Assembly (NCBI RefSeq): GCF_024713945.1
Contig: NC_134679.1
Location: 3,725,001 to 3,789,000 of the forward strand
Length of the DNA stretch: 64,000 nt
Source: Dermatophagoides farinae
Taxonomy: Eukaryota > Arthropoda > Arachnida > Sarcoptiformes > Pyroglyphidae
Direction of reading: 5' to 3'
Numbering within the stretch: position 1 is the first letter of the stretch; every line of letters starts with the position of its first letter. The translations under genes and the position numbers were made by a program. Under the pieces are notes generated by a model that was not told the DNA's origin, ran no database searches, and saw only the letters and a program-made list of their open reading frames with translations. Shown here one piece after another: positions 4,371 to 51,242 of this stretch.

Positions 4371-6414
4371 TCATGGTAATTAACGTATAGTTATATTGTT
4401 TTTATTACGGTTGCTTCTTTCTCTTCTCTGGTGCACCACCATGCCATAGCAAACATTCCATCCATGATTATTATTATACTTAAAATAAATCGACATTTTA
4501 ATTTAATATGCACATTTTATTCATGCTCATTGATTGGTTTGAGGAAAAATCATTACATTATTTTTCTAAGCATAAATGGAAAAAGTTTTTTTCCCTCTTG
4601 GTACATTTGTTTGTTTGGGCGTCATTTTCAAAAAACAAAGATCGAATGTATCCAAAACAAACTAAATAAAAAAAAAATAGTACCTGCGCATAATTTCGTT
4701 TATTCGAACGAAACCAGAAAAAAAACTCTAGCAAGAACGCCACAGTGTGGTATCTTGGAGTAACTCATTGATTCATTCAATTCACAATTAGTAAGTGATC
4801 AGGGGGGTGTATTGTAATATGTTGGGGCTGACAGAAATGAAAGAAAAATGCACAACTCTGTTGTGTGTATATGAACTAAAGTGAGCTGAGTTCGAGCAGA
4901 CATTGCATGCCATATATCGTATACATACGATGTATTTAAACAACCGATAGTCTATAACTGTGTATATTGGAGGATTGGATGGCTACATTTGTTGTTGCCA
5001 GTTATTCCAATCTTTTCGATCATCGTCAATATTTCGATTTTGTTTTTTGTTATTGTTGTTTTTATTTGACCATACTTTCTTCATACTGCATGATTTTTTT
5101 ACTATCCATAAGTCATATTTATTCTATCTCATTGTCCTCTAGTGATATAATTAATTAGTCCCTATTTTTTCCGGTGTTTTTCTCATCAATCTCTTTTCGG
5201 TGTTGCTCAACCCTGCACCACCGTTACACCATACATCACAATGGTATATAATATCATCTGATCTCACTCTGATGTTGATGACCAAACAGGTATGACTAAT
5301 GAAATGAAATGACTTTTTATTTTGATAACTTATTCTTGTATGCTTACATATGATTATGTGTGTGTGTGTATGTTTTTTTCGTCATTATCGTTGTGAAGTT
5401 GTCCTTGTCCTTTATATATAAAAAAAAGTTGGTGGCCAATTTTCCAAACTTTCTTAATCGAAATAAAAGAGACTCTGTATAATGATGATACAATGTGCAT
5501 GACTCATATATTAAGTGCATGATAAAACTCTTCAGTATCTCTTGCATTCATTTGACGTTACTGATGCGTATTTATTTGTTGGAGAAAAATAATGACGATC
5601 CAATTTTCTCTTTTGACAGTTCCAGAAACGTATTTCCGGTTCAAAATCTCCGGTAAACTCTCTTTCATCATGCATGCACACACACACACACATAATTAAT
5701 TGATTTCAATGTTGATTGACAGTATTAATTGCTATATATTTTAAACTATTATTATTTTATTTGTTTATTTCTGCTCTCTTATATTTATATATGACGTTTT
5801 CATTTTTTTTTCTTTATAGCTAAAATCCAACACGTTCTGATTTAAGTCCAAATGCTACTGTCTTTGCCCGTAGTCAAGTTTTACTAGCCCCCCTCATTTC
5901 AAATGTGCAATTGCATTTGGCTTTGATTCGTTTGTAAAATATTCATCCATCATCATCGAAATCATATCACAGCATCCTAATTCCACTCAATACAAAATAC
6001 ATCGTGTTTGTGCTTGTTTATATGATGTTGCGTTCATTTTGTCAATGTGTTATAATAATAATCATTGATTAAAAGCAGAAAAAAATATATATCATTTGGC
6101 TCCATATTCACCTGCCTATTTGTTTTTTTTATCATAAATCAATGTGTTATCAGTCATGATAAATTAATGTTATATTGATTGATCGTATTCATTCTCATCC
6201 AACACATAACCGATCGATTGGTCTGTAATGAAGCAAAAAATTCCAAAAAACCAATCGATCTCTTGTATACGTTGACTTGTACTTGTGCGCATATCATAAA
6301 TATATTTGATGTATGAATCTTCTTTAATCCGGTGTTTAAGCTGGTATACTGATTTGATTCATCATAATCGTCGTTGTGTCATGTTGTGGCTGCTCATCAT
6401 TAGCATCATATATA
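4371..6414. other. Intergenic region upstream of TMCC
   Basis: About 2 kb of AT-rich sequence with T runs and a short CA tract near 5679-5691. A T-rich run ending in TTTATAG at about 5820 could be the acceptor of a 5' UTR exon for the TMCC gene, but nothing ties it to a donor. One AP-1 heptamer occurs at 5500-5506. No coding sequence was recognised. Confidence 0.5.
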
Positions 6415-8961
6415 ATGTTACGAAACTCGAACGACAATAATAATACTCGAACTGCTGCTGCTGTTAAGGCCTTTGTATGCACATCGGATCATCAAATAAC
6501 AAATATCGATACCACCATATCGCCAAGTACATTGTCCGTTGATCATAATCGAATATTTAATAATGATAAAACTAATAAAATTGTTGTTGATGATGATGGT
6601 AATGATGATAGGAATAATATCATCATCCATAAACAATCGACTAGTGATAATGAACGATCGAATACTATGAATGCTAGTCATGCTCAATTTCAGTTGTTAT
6701 CACAGCAGCCGAAACCATCGCCCACGCATTCACATCATTCGACCGCATCGACGACAACAATATCCTCATCAGCAGCAGCAGGGTTGAAGCCGACACATCG
6801 CCGTGGATACAGCCATGGTTCATTTAGTACGCTAAACCCCCAATCCATTAGAGATATTATGTCCTCATCTTCGACTAGTACGAATCACCATCATTCTCAT
6901 CTACCACCACCAACCCCACAATCCAATTACTTATCGCTAGGACGTGCACATAACAATTTGTTAGAATCGTCGTACATTAGTGATACCCGAAATCGAAATT
7001 TTTTATTAAATCCCTCGGAAGTGACCACAGCAATATCCGGATCGATTATGAAATCTAGTTCAAGTGAACAAGTCGATTCAGGTGCTGAACTTCCGTCACA
7101 AACAGCTGCTCTGCCATCGACTACTCTGACCCCGAATGATGAAACTAAACGTGCCATCGCCGAAATCGAACAGAAAATTCGGAAATTTAAGAAAAAAATC
7201 GCTCAAGAACAAATCAATTGTAATGATAATGTAAATGAATATCTCAAGTTGACATCGAGTGCCCAGCCAAATCAAAGTCAACGTTTGAAAACAGTGTTTG
7301 AAAAGAAAAATCAAAAATCTTCACAAAAAATTGCTCGTTGTCAGAAAAAGATGAATCGTTTGGATCAGGAACTTGAACGGATAAAGAACGGCGGCATCTA
7401 TCATCGCCATCCGAAAGAACGACTTCGTGATGTTGGAACAAATATCAAAGAAGGTATCAGTGGTCTTTCCGGTGGTGTAATCGAAGGCATCAAATCGGGT
7501 ATACATACGGCCGGAGAGTAAGTTTTCAACACAAATTTTCTCATTAATTTTAACCAATTTCACTTTATTTAGGACTGTGATTACAAAACCGAAAGAATTT
7601 TTCAAACGAACCACTGCCGATAATGCAGAGAGTATGTTTTTGCCCTATCTTCTTGGACAATAAACTTAAAAGTTTATTATATTTTTATAATACAGAGAAT
7701 AGCATGGAACAAGAACCAACCAGTACTTTTGTCACATATTTAATTGATCCGGAAATGTCACAACAGCCAACAACTGTTTCTGGCGGGGTAGGTGGTAATT
7801 CCGGGATGCTCAATTCGAATAGTCATTCACATAGTCATAGTACGAAATGTACATCAGATGATGATGATGATAGTTCAAGTATTACATCGGAATCTGGTCA
7901 ATTGGGTGGTATGAATAGCCATACTAATAGTGCTCATTACAGTAGCAGTCCATTACGAATGAAACCATTTAAACGTAAGATCTTTGAATATGATAATTCA
8001 CAATAGTAATAATAATGTTCATTTATCCTTGAAAAATTGGCACCATCCTATAGGATATTATACTGTTGCAGATATTGATCAGCTAAGAAATCGTATCGAT
8101 GAACGAACACAAGATTGTTTACGTTTTGGTGAAGAAATTGATACGCTAAAAAATCAATTCCAATCCGAATGTTTGCTATTCAATCAAACGCTTCAGGATG
8201 AAAAATATCGTGTCGAGGTATCATATATAATAATGATGTTTACTTTCCACTTTTGTCTTTTTATTCGATAATCTAAACATTTTGTTTCGTATCATATGGC
8301 CATTATAGCGATTAGAAGAGCAGCTTAATGATTTAACCGAGCTCCACCAGAAGGAGATTGAAAATCTCAAACAAACAATTTCAGATCTCGAGGAAAAGAT
8401 TCAATATCAAACCGATGAACGACATAGGGATGTACATGAAATGTTGGAAAGCTTCCAGACAAGGGTATGTTTGATAGTCGATTTCTAGAGATAAATCCAA
8501 TTATAAATTCTGTTCATACATCAGATATCACGAATGGAGCATCAACAACATCAACATTTACAGCAATTGGTCAATCTTGACTCATTGGATAATTCGAATG
8601 CCCGAGCACTCGTACTTAAATTGATCAACGTTCTGTTGACCGTTTTACAAGTTATTCTATTGCTGGTCGCTACCGTAGCTAACATTTTGGCACCATTTTT
8701 ACAGACACGGTGAGCATTGTTATGTTTATTTCCTATTTTGATTGATCATTTTTCATTATAATTTGGTACAGAGCTCGAATATTTACCAGCGTATTTGTAA
8801 TCATAATGTTCACATTCGTCTTTCAACATTGGCCGGAATTGGATATGTGGACGAGACAAAAACTCTATGATAATTGTCTATACGTATTGGATTTGTTTCC
8901 ATTCCTTTCATCGTCATCGATTGGTGTCAATGCCTATCCGAATCGACCAGCAACCACGTAG
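6415..8961 (+). CDS. Transmembrane and coiled-coil domain protein, TMCC1/2/3 family
   Basis: Seven exons: 6415-7517, 7573-7631, 7696-7974, 8054 (or 8072)-8217, 8309-8464, 8525-8709 and 8772-8961, giving 711 (or 705) residues. TMCC proteins are ER membrane proteins that self-associate through coiled coils. After a Ser/Thr/His/Asn-rich N-terminus comes the first family block ([19 protein letters not shown], then [20 protein letters not shown]). The second coiled coil contains [20 protein letters not shown], near-identical to human TMCC. The C-terminus has [13 protein letters not shown], two hydrophobic segments ([16 protein letters not shown] and [14 protein letters not shown]) and a short tail. 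The first in-frame ATG is 6415; the frame is open to a GTG at 6376 with a stop just upstream. TMCC1, 2 and 3 cannot be told apart; Drosophila has a single member (Dementin). Confidence 0.92.
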
Positions 8962-18020: not shown

Positions 18021-18081
<61 letters not shown>

Positions 18082-41513: not shown

Positions 41514-44500
41514 TTAAAAAAAAATTCCGATCCGCGGATTCTTTTTCAATATATATATGAACTATATTGCAACTACGATTACGACAAATATACAGTGAAT
41601 CATCACTTTAGCTAGCCAAAAAAAAATCAGAACCAAATTATCATGATTCGTGCATATACTGTATTTTATCAATGGTTTCCTTTCTTTTCTTTACCGCTAC
41701 TTATATAAACAAATGCTCGTATGAGTCATCAATGAGAATGACCACATTGAAATATGTCCTTCTCTCTATCACATACACAAGTGACGTAAATACAATATAT
41801 ATATATATATTAGACCTGTTGAGTTACATTGAACACTACCACTACCACTACCACTGTGACTGAGAACCAGCATCATCAATTAGAAAAAAAAATGCACATT
41901 GATGTCATCAAATATACAACTCACTAACATAAAGTCATTTTGTAGTCGCGCGCATAATACGCGACAAGTAAACATTTTGGCATCGGTTTCATTTGATTCG
42001 ATTCGATTCAATTCGATTCTGTTATATATTATGCTGGCATTTTTGCCAATTCAAAATTGTTGCATACGCAAACCATACACATAAACTTGACATGGACATA
42101 ATATAATCGTCTGTATATAATAATAATAAAACATTATAAACGACTACGTCGAATTCTAAGAATTTGACGACATCAATCGGGGATTCATCATCTTCATATC
42201 TTCATATATACTTTAATCCATTTACAATAAATTCATTTATTCATTCAATTTCGTCATCATCATCTTATTTTGATTCATTAAATTCGATTCTGGTCTATTA
42301 TTTTGCCAACCAAAATTGTTCCTTTTTAGAGTGTTTTTTTTTAATTTTGTTCATTGCGACACCTGCATTCTGTTCTTCTGGTCACATTCCCATTCATCAT
42401 TGCCATAATCTATGTGTGAATCAATGTTGTACTTCACTGATTAATATATACTGGCTATTTATCGACCAAAATTAATGATAATCAATCATCTCATACTGAA
42501 TACATATCAAATAAAACAAAAAAAAAATTTCTTCAAAATATCTTCGAATCTCTGGATAAAAGTTTGAAGCTTTCAAAATAAAACCGTTATTGCCTCTGGA
42601 ATCCACTAATAACTTAATTATTATACAATTACAATTCACTTTGAACGGTAATAAAACTATTAAAACTTCAATGAAAAGTAAGTTTTGGATCTAGATTCTA
42701 GATATTCTTTTTTTTCCATACGTTTCTTATAAGAATTGATGTTACATTCCTCATTGATGATTTTTTGTTGAAAATGAAAATGTTAAATATGCGATCCATT
42801 ATTTTTTTTGTATAACTGTAAGGATCAATTGTTTTTTTTTAAATTTAGTGACACAACTCATATGACTCATTCACCTGTCGGTCTTTTTTTTTAAATTTCT
42901 CTCGATATATACTACTATTTAATTTCTCTTTTAATGTAATATGCCTTAAGTCGATATAATGTATGTGTGTGTGTGTGTATGTATTACCTATTAATGATAA
43001 TGTTGATGATATGACGCCCCAATTTGTCCTTGGCTTGTTTTTTTGTTGTTGTTGTTGTATTATTTGATAAACGGTTTCATAAAATTGTTGGTACATTTTT
43101 CGTTTTATATTGTATGAAAATGAATGCATTTGGTAAAATGATGGTGCAAATACATATGTGTATGAAGGAGAAATTTGAAAAAAAATTTTCAAGTAATTGA
43201 TGATACACAACACTGAAGTTGGAATGAATCTCATTCCTATCAATATATTTCTACAGACTATATTCAAATTCAATTCTCAACTTGTTGTTCATATATAATA
43301 ATACAAGCTTTAATCTTTAGGCACTTTTAATAATTAATTAAAAAAACATTTTGAACGGAAATGATAGATTATTAACCCTTCTTTTGTGTTGAATATATTA
43401 TGACTCACAATCGGTTTATTTCCTCTTTTTTTCCTTAGCCTTTCACTTAATAATAATCAATATTATTATTATGTGAATGGGCATTTCCATTGAAATGTCA
43501 TTAAATTCAAAGTTGTTAAATACGATGTTATTGCAGCTAGCCTACTACTTACCTCATAATCCTATACATAAGACATCCTGTATTTGTTTGCCTGTGTGTT
43601 TGTGTGTGTGTGTGTGTATGAGTATGCCGCCTACCTTTGGTTGTTTGTTTTAGTAATGAGTTGCATAGAAGACACACTCTCTTCTTTCTTTTTGTTATTA
43701 TTCAATTACTCCATTTAGGTTAGGTGTGATTCATCCATATTCGGGTATAGTAACTCGGTTTTCCATGACTATATGATTTCATTCATTTAAACCAAAAAAT
43801 ATAAAAAAAAATTCCATGCAATCATCTATGATGTGTTGAAATCATCATTCACTATAGTGATCTGCAATGATGATTTGTCTATTGTCACGATACCAGGTCA
43901 TTCACCACAGAATAATAACTTATTCATCGGGTTGTCATGGCATGACAAACATCCTATCATTTCCGATTGTCGTTTGTATTCTTTTGACCATCACCATGAT
44001 GACTAGGTCGATCCGTTTAATAAATGATGTATTTGATTTCCTTGATGATGATGATTCATCTCATCATTGAGCTTGAACGTTTCGGTTACGATTCAAATTG
44101 ACCCCCGGATATCGGGTTTCTTTGTTTTTTTAATGATCACTGATTACCATCATCATCATGTCTTAGACAATGTCAAGGATATGAGTCATAATTTCTTTTG
44201 AAGGTTGACTAGTTTGGTTGAGATCTTAATTCAAGCCAATCATCATCATCATCATCATCATAATCATTCAAATGAAATGATTCAAATCACCGCACAGGAA
44301 TTTTATTGTGAAAGTGAAAAGTGACGAAATAAGACAAACAAAAAAAACTTGAACAATTATAGAATTGAAAAAAAAATTCCATTAACATTAGACTGCCTGT
44401 AGACACGTCACTTAATGGTAATATATATGTGGTCAGGTCATATGATAGGAATCTGGTGTGTTGGTGACTCACAAATATTTGGTTTACATCAAGTCAAGTC

Positions 44501-44593
44501 TATATGAAGATCAAAAGAAGCGTTCTATATTTGTAACTAAATAATAATAATTCCATGCGCCTCTCATTCTATCCATCTTTAGAGATTGTTGTT

Positions 44594-44621
44594 GTTATTG
44601 TGTAGATGATATTTTTGGCTT
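44594..44621 (+). repeat. 28-bp exact repeat, copy 2
   Basis: Identical to 41486-41513. Both copies lie within the AP-1-rich interval upstream of the phosphatase gene. Confidence 0.9.
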
Positions 44622-46762
44622 ATGATTTTATTGCCAAAAATATTCTTGATTGTCATAGTTTTTGTTTGTTTTCTAAGAATTGAATAATATATAATGATCA
44701 TGGCCATTATATATTGTTCAGTAATTTAATGAAACAAAGTTGCTCTTGACCTGGCTTTTTTTATTCTTTCAAATCATTTGATATTGTTGTTATGGAAGAG
44801 AAAAGGAATTTTTTTTTTGGAACTTTTGTGGAACCAGTCTTTTTTTTGAAGCAAAATAGTAATTTACTTGATTGAAACTATATATATTCAACATGGAACT
44901 GGTATTTCATTTTTTCACTGTGTGTTTTTTCTGTTTTTAACAATGATGATTTATGTTTTTTTTTTGTTGAGAAAAAATACAAAAAGAATCAGCTTGTAAT
45001 CTGATACCTGATCTTTGATTTTTTATTTTCTATCAGATGAATAATGATGATCATCATCATTTGTATCCATTATGGCCTTATTTTCATTAATTTTTTCTCG
45101 GATGCACGTGTTTTTGGATTCATTCTCAATAATAAATTTTAGAATATTTGCTCTTTAGTTTTCCAATTTCATGTTGTTGTGTGTGCATTTGATCATAAAT
45201 GTAGTATTTTGCATTGTTGTTTTGTATTCCATTTTGATTTCATGGAATTCTAGCAACAAAAATGGACAAAACAAGAAAAATATTTATTTTTAGCAATAGA
45301 ATTGTTTTCGATATTCCACTTGGAACACATAGTTAGAAAGCTCTAATCATATCACGAATCCTATGATTATCTTATGAATTGGATGAGTCATCCATGAGAA
45401 TTGAAGAGAATTTTCCCCCCCCATGACCACTAATGTTCTTTTATCGTTTGATCATGGTGGTGGTTATTTATGCTAAATCCAGACGCCCATCTTGGACCAG
45501 TCAGTTATTTTGTATTAATAATCATTCAGTCCTCTCTGATCCATGTACATACATATGCACAAACTGGTGTTCAAGGCGCCAAATCCACACTTTTCGACAT
45601 TGAACATTGTTCCATTGAACCACTACAACCAAACGGTTTACACATTTACATTAGATTCTTTGAGTTTCAGAATCTCTTGTGAAAAATTGGCACATACTCA
45701 CGCATGCGGCGTCAGTTTAAAGGTTCATGTATCGCTATGGAATTGAATGACTAATTCGTAGGCACCTTGGTTATTCGTGGTTAACATGACGCCCGCCGAC
45801 TAAGAATGACCAATTGAATGAGAATGAAAATACATGAACATTGAATTGATCCCAATGAAACACGATTTTCAAACATTTTATTATTGTTGGTAGTGGTGGC
45901 CCTAAAAGATGGTACCATCATTATATATAGAAATCGCCTTGAAACTATACTATACCAATATTTGTGGATACACCTTGACTTTATCACAATAAAATATACA
46001 AATGACTCACGAATGTCGTCACCGATCGACTCTTAGTCATCAACGAAATAGTGGTGGTGGTTGTGTGTGTATATATATGAAGCTTCTTGAATTCTGTTTC
46101 TGAAACTGCTTATGGTATTCTCAATATATTTGGGTCTATATGTCTGAGTCATTCTTATATTCGTTTATTCTCCTCGGCATTCGACGACAATTCTTGTCGG
46201 TGTCTTTTTTGAACTAAAATTTTTGTGTGCAATATCTTTATGTGTATCTGTGCATCTAACATATCAATTCTTTGGTCAACAAGAATCACATATCATCATT
46301 AATGGCAATATAATTTATCATATCGAGAAATGGTATTTAAGAGGTAAAAAAAGTTTTTTTTTTAATTAGTCATAACCTCTATCCATTTGTGATAGCGATA
46401 TTGTAACAATCAATACCATTTGCATCATGCCACTATTTGTTTTAACCACCATTGGTGAGTAGTTATAATTTTTTTTATTTAAAATCTTGATTGTATTCTT
46501 GAAAATGCTTTCGTTTTGATCGTTTTATTACTCATCATCATCATCATCATCTAAACGATTGATGATTGTAATCTAATTTTTAACTTTGTTCGAATTTCCA
46601 AGTCCAATATTGGTAATTATTTATTGATAAAGATTGTTTTTAGTCTATCATATGATTTTTTTTTCATATCTATCATCAATAACAAAGATCCGATACTGAA
46701 AATGATTGATTAGATAATTAAATGAACTTTAAAAAATATTCATAGTCATTGATATTGAGTCA

Positions 46763-47329
46763 TTTCATTCATCATAATTTCTTAGTATAGCCGCTAGTCG
46801 AATGTTATTCATTCATGTTTGGATATTTTTGACAAGGAATAACCCAAACAAACAGTTATAATAATAACTTGTATTGTATTTGATTTTCCACCATTGTAAA
46901 TGATTTTTGGTTATTGCACTTTTTCTTATATATTACGATGACGATGACTTGACCATTGTTATTTTATGTGTTGGTTTACTATTACTCTAACTATTCTCTG
47001 ATGATCGTCTGTTACTAAAAACTGGTTCCTTGATGTAATGATGGTATATGACGAATGATATCGGTTACAACACCCCATATACAAATATTACACGCGCGTA
47101 TATAAATGCCGTATGACACATGGAAATCGTTAATTTTATTGTAATCCAGAGTTTGTGTATAATCGTCGCTAGTCAAAATTGAAATTGAAAATTTTTGATT
47201 TTTTTTCTTATATTTATATATAATGATGAATCGTTTGAATTTTTTTTATCTTGTTATAGGAAATTGATGAAAAAATTTTCTGTGACCTTTTTTCGACAAT
47301 TTCATTAATTTGCTCTACAACATATTATC
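46763..47329. other. Immediate upstream region and probable 5' UTR of the DUSP10-like gene
   Basis: AT-rich sequence ending in a T-rich acceptor-like run (ATCTTGTTATAG, ending about 47260) about 70 bp before the start codon. A possible matching donor GTGAGT lies near 46454, which would define a 5' UTR intron of about 0.8 kb. Unproven. Confidence 0.35.
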
Positions 47330-50300
47330 ATGGCAGTGGCAATGGTCAGTTTGGATTCAGGTGCCACGAACGGACATTTAGTGGTCGATTCTTTTGTTAG
47401 TTCGTTATCATCATCATCATCACCATCACCATCATCATCGTCGTTAGCTACAACATCAGTTGACGTAAATACTGCTGCCGATGATTTATTATTATCTACC
47501 TCTTCATCATCATCAAATGATTCTCATGATCTCATCATGATGGATTCAATATCATCATCTTGTCCACAAACACAAACAACATCGATGTTATTGCTACCAC
47601 CGTTGCCACCATCATCATCACCATCTTTGAATAGTAGTAAAACAACCGCTGATATAATGATCACTTCCAGTAATAATAATAATAATGTTCACCACCTCCA
47701 ATCTATTGTTCAGCGGCGGCAACAACGTCGTCCCAAATTAGACATAACAACAGTCAATTCATCATCGTTATTGTCACAAAAAGTTCGACTTTCATTGGAT
47801 ATGAATGGAATAAATCATCATCACTACAATCACCATCATAACCATCATCATGCAAGTCCAATGGTAATCACAATGGCCAATGCAGAACATAATAGTCGAA
47901 AATTGAAAATTGGAAAATCGGTAAGATTATCGTTTCATTTGTTTTTGAAAAATGTTTCTATTGAAAATTTTGCTTTAAATTTAAAATTACAGCAATCCCC
48001 ATGTTGTAAAACTTGTCGGATACAATTTTGTCGTCAAAATTCGTTTCAACAACAACAGCAGCAGCAGCAGCCACAACAACAATCACAATTCAAAATGGAC
48101 ATTCTTGAAACTATAGATCCAGATTATAATTCCAATCCATCAAGTGCACCAATATTGACGGGCGATGATGATGAACAGTCTTCAAAGAATTCTCTGCTAT
48201 TGAATTCAGTCAATTCTTGTTGTAATCTTATGATCTCATCATCATCATCATCTTGTTCATCTTCGGTATCATCAATGTCACCATCTTCATTTCTTTCAAG
48301 TTCCTCATCATCGTCATCTATGTCATCAATAGTATCGCCTTCATCATTATTCTGTGGTGGTTCATCCGCATTCAAACGTACCAGACGTAGTCTATTGATG
48401 GCGGCAACTGATCCACTGGATAATATGGCTACATCATCATCATTTACTTTTGATGAAACGCCCTCAGGCTTCGGTGATGAAGGTGATGGAGGAATTGGCT
48501 CCTCATCATCAGTAATGGAAGCAAATGCAACACCTATACTGCCTTTCCTGTATTTGGGTAATGAACGTAATGCCAACGATGTCAAACGTTTAGATGAGCT
48601 TTCTATATCATATGTTTTAAATGTAACATCTCAACCATCATCGACAACCACTAATGATCATAGTAAAGTAGCCGGAAATGTGAATGAATCATTTTCTTAT
48701 CAATCTAGTCATGATGATTCATCATCACAATTCCATAGTCAATCTAATCACTGTGATAGAAAAAATAAAAATATCGATAATACCACCAATTATGAAGAAC
48801 CAGAATGCTATGAATCTGATTCTGCCAAACATTTGCCATCATCCAAAACTATGAATCGTTTTTATAAGTGGCTACCAGCATCAGATAATTATCAACAGAA
48901 TTTAAAACAATATTTTGAAGAAGCTTTCCAGTTTATCGGTGAGTGTTTTATTCTCTTTTGCTTTTTCTATACATAATGCATTCGAATCGATTCATTGAAC
49001 CATAATGCTGCAATTGTTGTTTCATATGTTGAATCATCACCATAAATGCAGAATCTGATCAACCTCTAGCTTTAGTTAGTTTTTTTCCATTTACTCAATT
49101 ATATGAATCAATCTGTCTCTTTAAATGTGCGCGGCTGTGTGTTCATTTGATGACACAAATCTGATAGAACTACATTCAATAAAACGCGTGACCTTTGAAT
49201 GACTAACATCATTCATCAGTCATGTCAAGACCGTTTGAAACATCCTCACAGTTAAAAATTGTGTACATTTCGACCGATTAATTCAATGTTTGTGGTGATG
49301 ATGATTGACTGGCCACTATATTTTTTTTGTCTTCCTGCTTGCTGAAAGTGTTTGAGATCAATAGTTTGCCTTTGCTTACTGTTTCCGCTTCTAGGTCACA
49401 AGATGTGCATATTCTATAGCTATTAGGTCATATGACTCACACATTACACCCAGAAAGATCTATATTGAATCTCAGCCGCTTTTTTCAACTTCACACACAC
49501 ACACACATGTTGGACCAGAAATCTAGGGACCAAAAGCAAGGCAAGCCGCACGTGTGACCAACCATCTAAGGTCCATCTGTCTCTGGCTTCGTTTCGGTAT
49601 ATGCGACATTTATGATGATGAGTAATAATGTCCCCCTAATATCGGATCCAAGGCCTAGCATGTGCTCTGATTTATTTGGGTTCATAAAATCTTTCAATGA
49701 ATGCAATTGAATGCACGTTATTTGATCTATTGATGCTCGTTGATCGAGTGTAAAAGTCTGTGTGTGAGTGTGTGTGTGTGTGTATGTCTGTTTGTTGTTG
49801 GCGGTGATGTTGGTTGCCAAACAACAATCAGAACAATTGTGGTAATGATGACTCATTCAGCGTTTCAATTTATACATAGGCCTCAGGCCTTGGGAAACTT
49901 TCCCATCATCCTCATCATCATCGATTGTTTCGATATCATTGGGATTTAGCATGACTCATTTTGGATTCGATGTTTGCGTGTTGTTTGATTTTAATGTGTA
50001 CGCTTTGGATTTTCTACCTATTTGTCATCAATAAATTGATTGGAATTCTAACACCTGGCCATTTGTTTTATTTAGTCATCCAGGTGGTAAATTAATGGCA
50101 TGCTCGTTCGATATTCAATTCGTTAGAAAAAGATTTCTTTTGTTTTACTTTTGATTTTTCTGGTCACCAAACGTGTGTGTGGTTTACGCTACTTGTTTAA
50201 TGGGTGGACATAATGAATCAATCATTTTTTGTATGGCCAATATCATTAATGATGATGATGTGTATTATGGACAAGAAATAGGCCTATTTGCACCACATTT

Positions 50301-51242
50301 TCCTTTTCCATAAATTTCGATGCGTGACAGATGTTATTGTCAAAATTATTGGTAACATCTCATTGGATATGATGACCTCTAGTATACCAACACGAATTCT
50401 AGTTGGCATCTGTGCCATTCAATAACCCACTTGTCCTCTTTTCTTTCTTTCTCTCTTCATAAAAGTCCAAATTATGACTTTTTGACTGGTACTTGGATTT
50501 TCTTTTTTTTAAATAGAATCTGGTTTCTTTCTTCCCTCTTTGGGCAACAGCTTGACATTAGCGGAACACAATGATCTCATTGAAAGTTTTAAACAATTTT
50601 ATTGCTTTTTGCATTTGAATTTTAATTATTTGAATGGACTTGCTAAGTGTTTGGAGAATTTCCCAAGTGAGCAAGCCAATCATCATTCATTGTGAACAAA
50701 TAAAAGAGTCAAAGAGTTAAGTGCAAGTTTGTTTTGTGTGTGTGCAATTTCAGAATTGTTTACATACTGGACAACGGCCTTGCGATGTAAATAATATGAC
50801 AAATTGAATTTGCTCTTAATCGTGCTCTGGGCATTTTATTTCATTTGTTTGTTTGACTAATTTGACTTTACCGTTATTCATTCTCTCTCTCTTTTTTCTT
50901 TTCATGATCACAGATGAAGCCCGACAAAAAGGCCATCGCGTACTGGTACATTGTCAAGCCGGTATTTCTCGTTCAGCTACGATAACTATTGCTTACATTA
51001 TGCGTCATCTGTACATGACTTTATCCGAAGCATATAGCTATGTTAAATCACGAAGACCCATCATCTCACCCAATTTAAATTTTATGGGACAATTGGTCGA
51101 ATTGGAAGAAATATTACGTACTCAACAAAAACAACAGCGTGAAATACCAGCTAATGTTTCTACCGATATTGCTGAACTCAACAAAGTTGCAGTATCTGAA
51201 TCTATAAAATCAAACATAATGGAATCCGAAGATGCGACATAA
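47330..51242 (+). CDS. DUSP10: Dual-specificity MAP kinase phosphatase, DUSP10/puckered type
   Basis: Exons 47330-47920, 47993-48938 and 50914-51242 give 621 residues. DUSP10/puckered enzymes dephosphorylate JNK and p38. The N-terminal half is Ser-, His- and Gln-rich low complexity, and no rhodanese/CH2 domain is visible, as in Drosophila puckered. The catalytic domain starts [19 protein letters not shown] and continues [10 protein letters not shown]. It is then interrupted by an insertion of about 60-70 residues and resumes with [20 protein letters not shown] (general acid Asp495). After a 1,975-bp intron comes [15 protein letters not shown] (Cys526, Arg532), then [17 protein letters not shown], which is close to DUSP10 ([17 protein letters not shown]). 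The 72-bp intron 47921-47992 is in frame and stop-free, so a 645-residue form is also readable. The surrounding AP-1 cluster suggests JNK-dependent expression. Poly(A) signal at 51475-51480. Confidence 0.92.
48939..50913 (+). other. Large intron splitting the phosphatase catalytic domain
   Basis: Donor TCG|GTGAGT at 48939 and acceptor ATCACAG ending at 50913. It is 1,975 bp long, about 25 times the usual intron here, with less simple sequence than the desert and three AP-1 heptamers (49433, 49849, 49952). This suggests an intronic enhancer. No coding exon was recognised within it. Confidence 0.7.

Follow-up and report, generated by a model that had tools for sequence, protein, structure and literature searches.

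Why is the gene of a predicted JNK phosphatase surrounded by copies of a single transcription factor site? The question arises in a 64-kb stretch of the genome (62,435,336 bases) of Dermatophagoides farinae, a house dust mite and main source of indoor allergens. In this stretch (contig C3, positions 3725001-3789000; hereafter the window), an initial annotation had pointed to twelve TGA(C/G)TCA heptamers that lie in and around a DUSP10/puckered-like gene within 8.2 kb and had read them as AP-1 sites. A gene on contig C6 encodes a protein that agrees with the Der f 7 structure at 190 of 191 residues; in the D. farinae assembly of PMC11074847, Der f 7 is likewise placed on chromosome 6. A scan of the whole window located exactly 12 such heptamers (TGASTCA, S being C or G) at 41722-49958, that is, in 8.24 kb; the remainder of the window holds seven, where about five had been estimated. 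All 12 lie in non-coding DNA, nine of them 5′ of the ATG at 47330 and three inside the intron at 48939-50913, at a density of about one site per 0.56 kb of non-coding DNA (Table 1). The locus is enriched in the heptamer, and the heptamers have the identity of AP-1 sites. We suggest, with a probability of roughly 75%, that the sites form a dispersed regulatory region through which AP-1 controls the mite orthologue of puckered/DUSP10, and that this region would provide negative feedback on JNK, as at fly puckered.

Heptamer excess and AP-1 flanks

With 3111 copies of TGASTCA in the genome (0.05 per kb), 0.41 copies are expected in 8.24 kb, compared with 12 observed (Poisson p 3e-14). Dinucleotide shuffles of the window gave a rate about three times that of the genome, namely 10.98 copies per 64 kb (0.17 per kb) or 1.4 per 8.24 kb, at which 12 sites have a Poisson p of 4e-8. 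A hand estimate of about one site, made earlier from base composition, was fair by both measures. With 3111 sites placed uniformly in each of 2000 simulated genomes, no stretch of 8.24 kb contained more than nine; when the rate was raised three-fold to that of the shuffles, one of 500 genomes attained 12. Twenty stretches of 10 kb on contigs C3 and C1, eight of them adjoining the window, together contained 11 copies in 200 kb, with at most four in any one stretch. The shuffles also hinted at a genome-wide avoidance of AP-1 sites (0.17 versus 0.05 per kb). This idea was rejected, as Markov models of order 2-5, which expect 0.057-0.096 copies per kb, do not uphold it (0.079 observed, in a sample that includes L041, a locus picked for its sites).

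The enriched word is not cherry-picked. When all 7-mers of 41700-49980 were compared with 255.5 kb of other sequence from the same genome, TGACTCA came out on top (12 versus 0.60 expected), and the next unrelated word, ACCACTA, occurred just seven times (0.96 expected). When 27 slices, each of 8,281 bases, were compared in this way with simple words excluded, the cluster region had the most extreme top word; second came slice L028, with 13 copies of ACTTACA in 8.3 kb. Within the 6,673 non-coding bases of the cluster region, only two of 19 distinct one-base variants of the heptamer were raised at a nominal p < 0.05: TGACTAA, itself a weaker AP-1-like word (four versus 0.78 expected), and TTACTCA (three versus 0.78). 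TGAATCA/TGATTCA occurred seven times there, with 3.84 expected. The upstream DNA of the cluster is single-copy: besides its own copy, 41600-47200 had 43 matches in the genome, all of them short (29-54 bases) and most of them in its simple-repeat parts (40 scored of 57 candidates). The surroundings of the sites have no longer repeat in common beyond simple repeats, and these two results rule out a repeat origin of the cluster.

In good AP-1 sites, the heptamer is preceded by a purine and followed by a pyrimidine. This extended form, RTGASTCAY, is found at 10 of the 12 cluster heptamers, compared with 740 of 3111 genome-wide (binomial p 2.4e-5) and two of the seven others in the window. The flank bias is a second signal, independent of the site count, and one that had been missed in the initial annotation. 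Two other identities were ruled out. GC stands neither before nor after any of the 12 heptamers, which excludes a Maf/CNC element (Maf recognition element [MARE] or antioxidant element), and the non-coding part of the cluster region contains no cAMP response element (CRE; TGACGTCA, zero copies), which excludes a CRE reading of the region.

Among the 418 of 740 RTGASTCAY sites listed, eight fall into 8.24 kb at the puckered locus and at most three into any other place (four places with three). The 418 are the pool of six pattern lists, one covering C1 only and the others comprising 100 of 141, 100 of 215, 100 of 114, 100 of 119 and 80 of 80 matches; two of the cluster's 10 RTGASTCAY sites are in none of them, and the pattern GTGACTCAT (100 of 119 matches listed) matches no cluster site. 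When flanks are disregarded, the first 100 listed of the 3111 heptamers, which cover the first 2.61 Mb of C1, reach at most three per 8.24 kb. These lists cover a part of the sliding-window ranking called for by the earlier proposal, and among the sites listed no other 8.24-kb stretch is equally dense.

A puckered-like phosphatase gene

The gene was correctly recognized as DUSP10/puckered-like. The dual-specificity phosphatase motif HCxxGxSRS is present in the last exon as HCQAGISRS, and joining the exons across 48939-50913 gives a continuous DUSP10-like phosphatase domain. In a PDB comparison with 103 domain residues as query, the best 13 of 87 matches were DUSP10 (134-138 bits), with the next at 107.5 bits and DUSP7 at 105. 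Because Pfam places two parts of the DSPc profile on its two sides, the 1,975-nt intron splits the catalytic domain, and the three heptamers at 49433-49958 lie within it, again as described before. An N-terminal rhodanese domain is a feature of vertebrate DUSP10; fly Puckered is not known to have one. A Pfam search of the 555-aa frame (E up to 0.001) revealed no such domain, and we therefore call the mite phosphatase puckered-like, not strictly DUSP10.

Two further features of the gene were noted. A Ser/Asn-rich insertion of about 75 residues (window 48630-48860) interrupts the phosphatase domain between VLNVTSQ and FYKWLPASD, and a candidate intron of 72 nt at 47921-47992 (GTAAGA donor, TTACAG acceptor) keeps the frame spliced or unspliced. 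Farther upstream, reading by eye suggests a splice donor near 46455 and an acceptor at 47259, so a first intron may take up some of the upstream DNA and, with it, some of the cluster.

Table 1. Heptamers and gene parts at the phosphatase locus (window positions) and other places with several sites
Feature	Position	Strand	Details
TGAGTCA	41722..41728	+	flanks A..T, RTGASTCAY
TGACTCA	42863..42869	+	flanks A..T, RTGASTCAY
TGACTCA	43401..43407	+	flanks A..C, RTGASTCAY
TGAGTCA	44182..44188	+	flanks A..T, RTGASTCAY
TGACTCA	44465..44471	+	flanks G..C, RTGASTCAY
TGAGTCA	45384..45390	+	flanks A..T, RTGASTCAY
TGACTCA	46003..46009	+	flanks A..C, RTGASTCAY
TGAGTCA	46145..46151	+	flanks C..T, not RTGASTCAY
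TGAGTCA	46756..46762	+	flanks T..T, not RTGASTCAY
First coding part of puckered/DUSP10-like phosphatase	47330..48938	+	Pfam DSPc profile 32-69, 27.1 bits, below curated cut-off
Phase-1 intron, 1,975 nt	48939..50913	+	GTGAGT donor, TCACAG acceptor; three sites inside
TGACTCA, in intron	49433..49439	+	flanks A..C, RTGASTCAY
TGACTCA, in intron	49849..49855	+	flanks A..T, RTGASTCAY
TGACTCA, in intron	49952..49958	+	flanks A..T, RTGASTCAY
Last coding part, active-site motif HCQAGISRS and stop	50914..51242	+	Pfam DSPc profile 65-132, 99.3 bits
L027 7551-9200	C3:3816551-3818200		four TGASTCA, three of them RTGASTCAY, in 1.6 kb; ~42 kb downstream
L041 5453-7363	C2:6956453-6958363		three RTGASTCAY in 10 kb, one of them inverted, with a common flank sequence
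L044			three sites in 10 kb, fourth just beyond
L045			three sites in 7 kb

JNK feedback and its alternatives

Candidate readers of the sites are encoded in the genome. A scan for basic leucine zipper (bZIP) domains returned 13 matches, 12 of them above the cut-off, including a Jun-type protein (best PDB match JunD, 5e-11) and a Fos-type protein (best PDB match c-Fos, 9e-8). The Fos-type gene (L013, C1:2541160) has three TGASTCA heptamers of its own in 8.25 kb, at C1:2540982, 2544509 and 2549224, and is possibly autoregulated by AP-1.

From the sites and the type of gene, we infer Jun/Fos binding, a response to JNK, the phosphatase gene as target and a joint action of the sites. In the mechanism that we propose, stress or development would activate JNK, Jun together with Fos would bind TGASTCA upstream of the gene and in its intron, and transcription of the phosphatase would go up; the phosphatase would then turn JNK off, which would close a negative feedback loop. 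As the sites are spread across 8.2 kb, they may belong to several regulatory elements instead of one dense enhancer. The earlier view of the upstream desert as a possible dense JNK-responsive enhancer is supported by the excess of sites and their AP-1 flanks, and qualified by this spread and by the possibility that the desert is in part a first intron. A bolder version, which strikes us as rather doubtful, holds that about 12 separate, near-ideal AP-1 sites, distributed around the gene and within it, control the JNK brake in the manner of a many-step dial in which feedback strength would follow AP-1 dose, and that nowhere else in the genome do AP-1 sites lie as densely. An open-access search found no literature on mite puckered or on AP-1/JNK enhancers in mites, although such papers may still exist.

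Several observations sit less comfortably with JNK feedback. The starts of the cluster sites are 103-2,677 nt apart, a loose spacing unlike that of one compact enhancer. ATF-4 is the second PDB match of the Fos-type protein (6e-7), and because of the 13 bZIP matches other readers of TGASTCA are possible. Ranking on partial lists, moreover, favours the cluster: since four of the listed patterns (those with 141, 215, 114 and 80 matches) match cluster sites, the density comparison leans towards the puckered locus.

The strongest competitor, which we nevertheless consider unlikely, is that the sites work mainly through another TGASTCA-reading bZIP dimer (of the ATF3, BATF or CREB/ATF type), or through Jun/Fos controlled by ERK or p38, as a general stress or growth enhancer. 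The motif alone cannot separate such dimers, and the 13 bZIP matches in the genome leave room for them; against them speak the lack of a CRE in the non-coding part and of a Maf/CNC GC extension at any of the 12 sites, and a gene of the JNK-phosphatase type, which is a classic AP-1 target in flies.

Less probable still, at odds that we would call slim, the sites may serve one of the two flanking genes, located near 29.8 kb and near 52-53 kb, or a transcript that is hidden in the desert upstream. Nine sites do lie upstream, and enhancers can skip genes. However, the sites stand on both sides of the first coding exon of the phosphatase and enter the gene, and the downstream neighbour encodes an IspD-type enzyme. 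As to hidden genes, no Pfam family was detected in the 10 frames scanned of 21 of at least 80 aa at 30-47 kb, and the window gave no Rfam or tRNA match.

A cluster due to chance or local composition, or a word bias devoid of function, appears the most improbable of all: the shuffle rate of about three times that of the genome, with 12 sites reached in one of 500 simulations, and the slice with its own strongly biased word (ACTTACA, 13 copies) lend it something, but Markov models of order 2-5 come close to the low observed rate, close heptamer variants are barely raised, the number of sites does not account for the bias in their flanks, the upstream DNA is single-copy and the surroundings of the sites share no longer repeat.

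Other multi-site places and known systems

The four-site stretch at L027 looks like part of an intron of a predicted slit-like gene and adjoins two nested frames, one of them histidine-rich. The L041 sites lie in introns of a predicted musashi-like RRM gene; both gene names were read from frames. At L044, two frames at 6158-7333 (C5:2821158-2822333) resemble pieces of an RNA-virus polymerase and probably represent an old insertion into the mite genome. Elsewhere in the window, 18025-18079 is a perfect TC run of 27.5 copies.

Negative feedback on JNK at the mite locus would suggest that the JNK-AP-1-phosphatase loop of flies is also present in chelicerates, written in cis strongly enough to be recognized in the bare sequence. 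A plain motif-density scan of a compact 62-Mb genome may then point to AP-1 target genes without functional data.

In homotypic clusters of transcription factor sites, a single site is repeated many times close to a gene under regulation. The mite gene resembles them in its many copies of one site and differs in their loose spacing, with 103-2,677 nt between starts.

In Drosophila, according to an excerpt of PMC3324472, Puckered is a phosphatase that the JNK pathway induces and that limits JNK in turn; excerpts of two other papers have puc respond already at low JNK levels (PMC12450469) and call it a canonical JNK target (PMC5054425). The role of fly puckered as a JNK feedback target, which had been invoked for the mite gene from the outset, agrees with the excerpts of PMC3324472 and PMC5054425. 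The mite locus is like fly puckered in that a puckered/DUSP10-type phosphatase, in flies JNK-induced and JNK-limiting (PMC3324472, as excerpted), is found together with AP-1 sites, and it differs in that the mite case is known from sequence alone. A second parallel is the fly damage enhancer BRV-B/DR-WNT of wingless-Wnt6, where removing three predicted AP-1 sites abolishes the response, as stated in an excerpt of PMC4786413. Both systems have several AP-1 sites near a JNK target, proven or proposed; going by the same excerpt, the fly enhancer is one fragment with three sites, whereas the mite gene has 12 sites over 8.2 kb.

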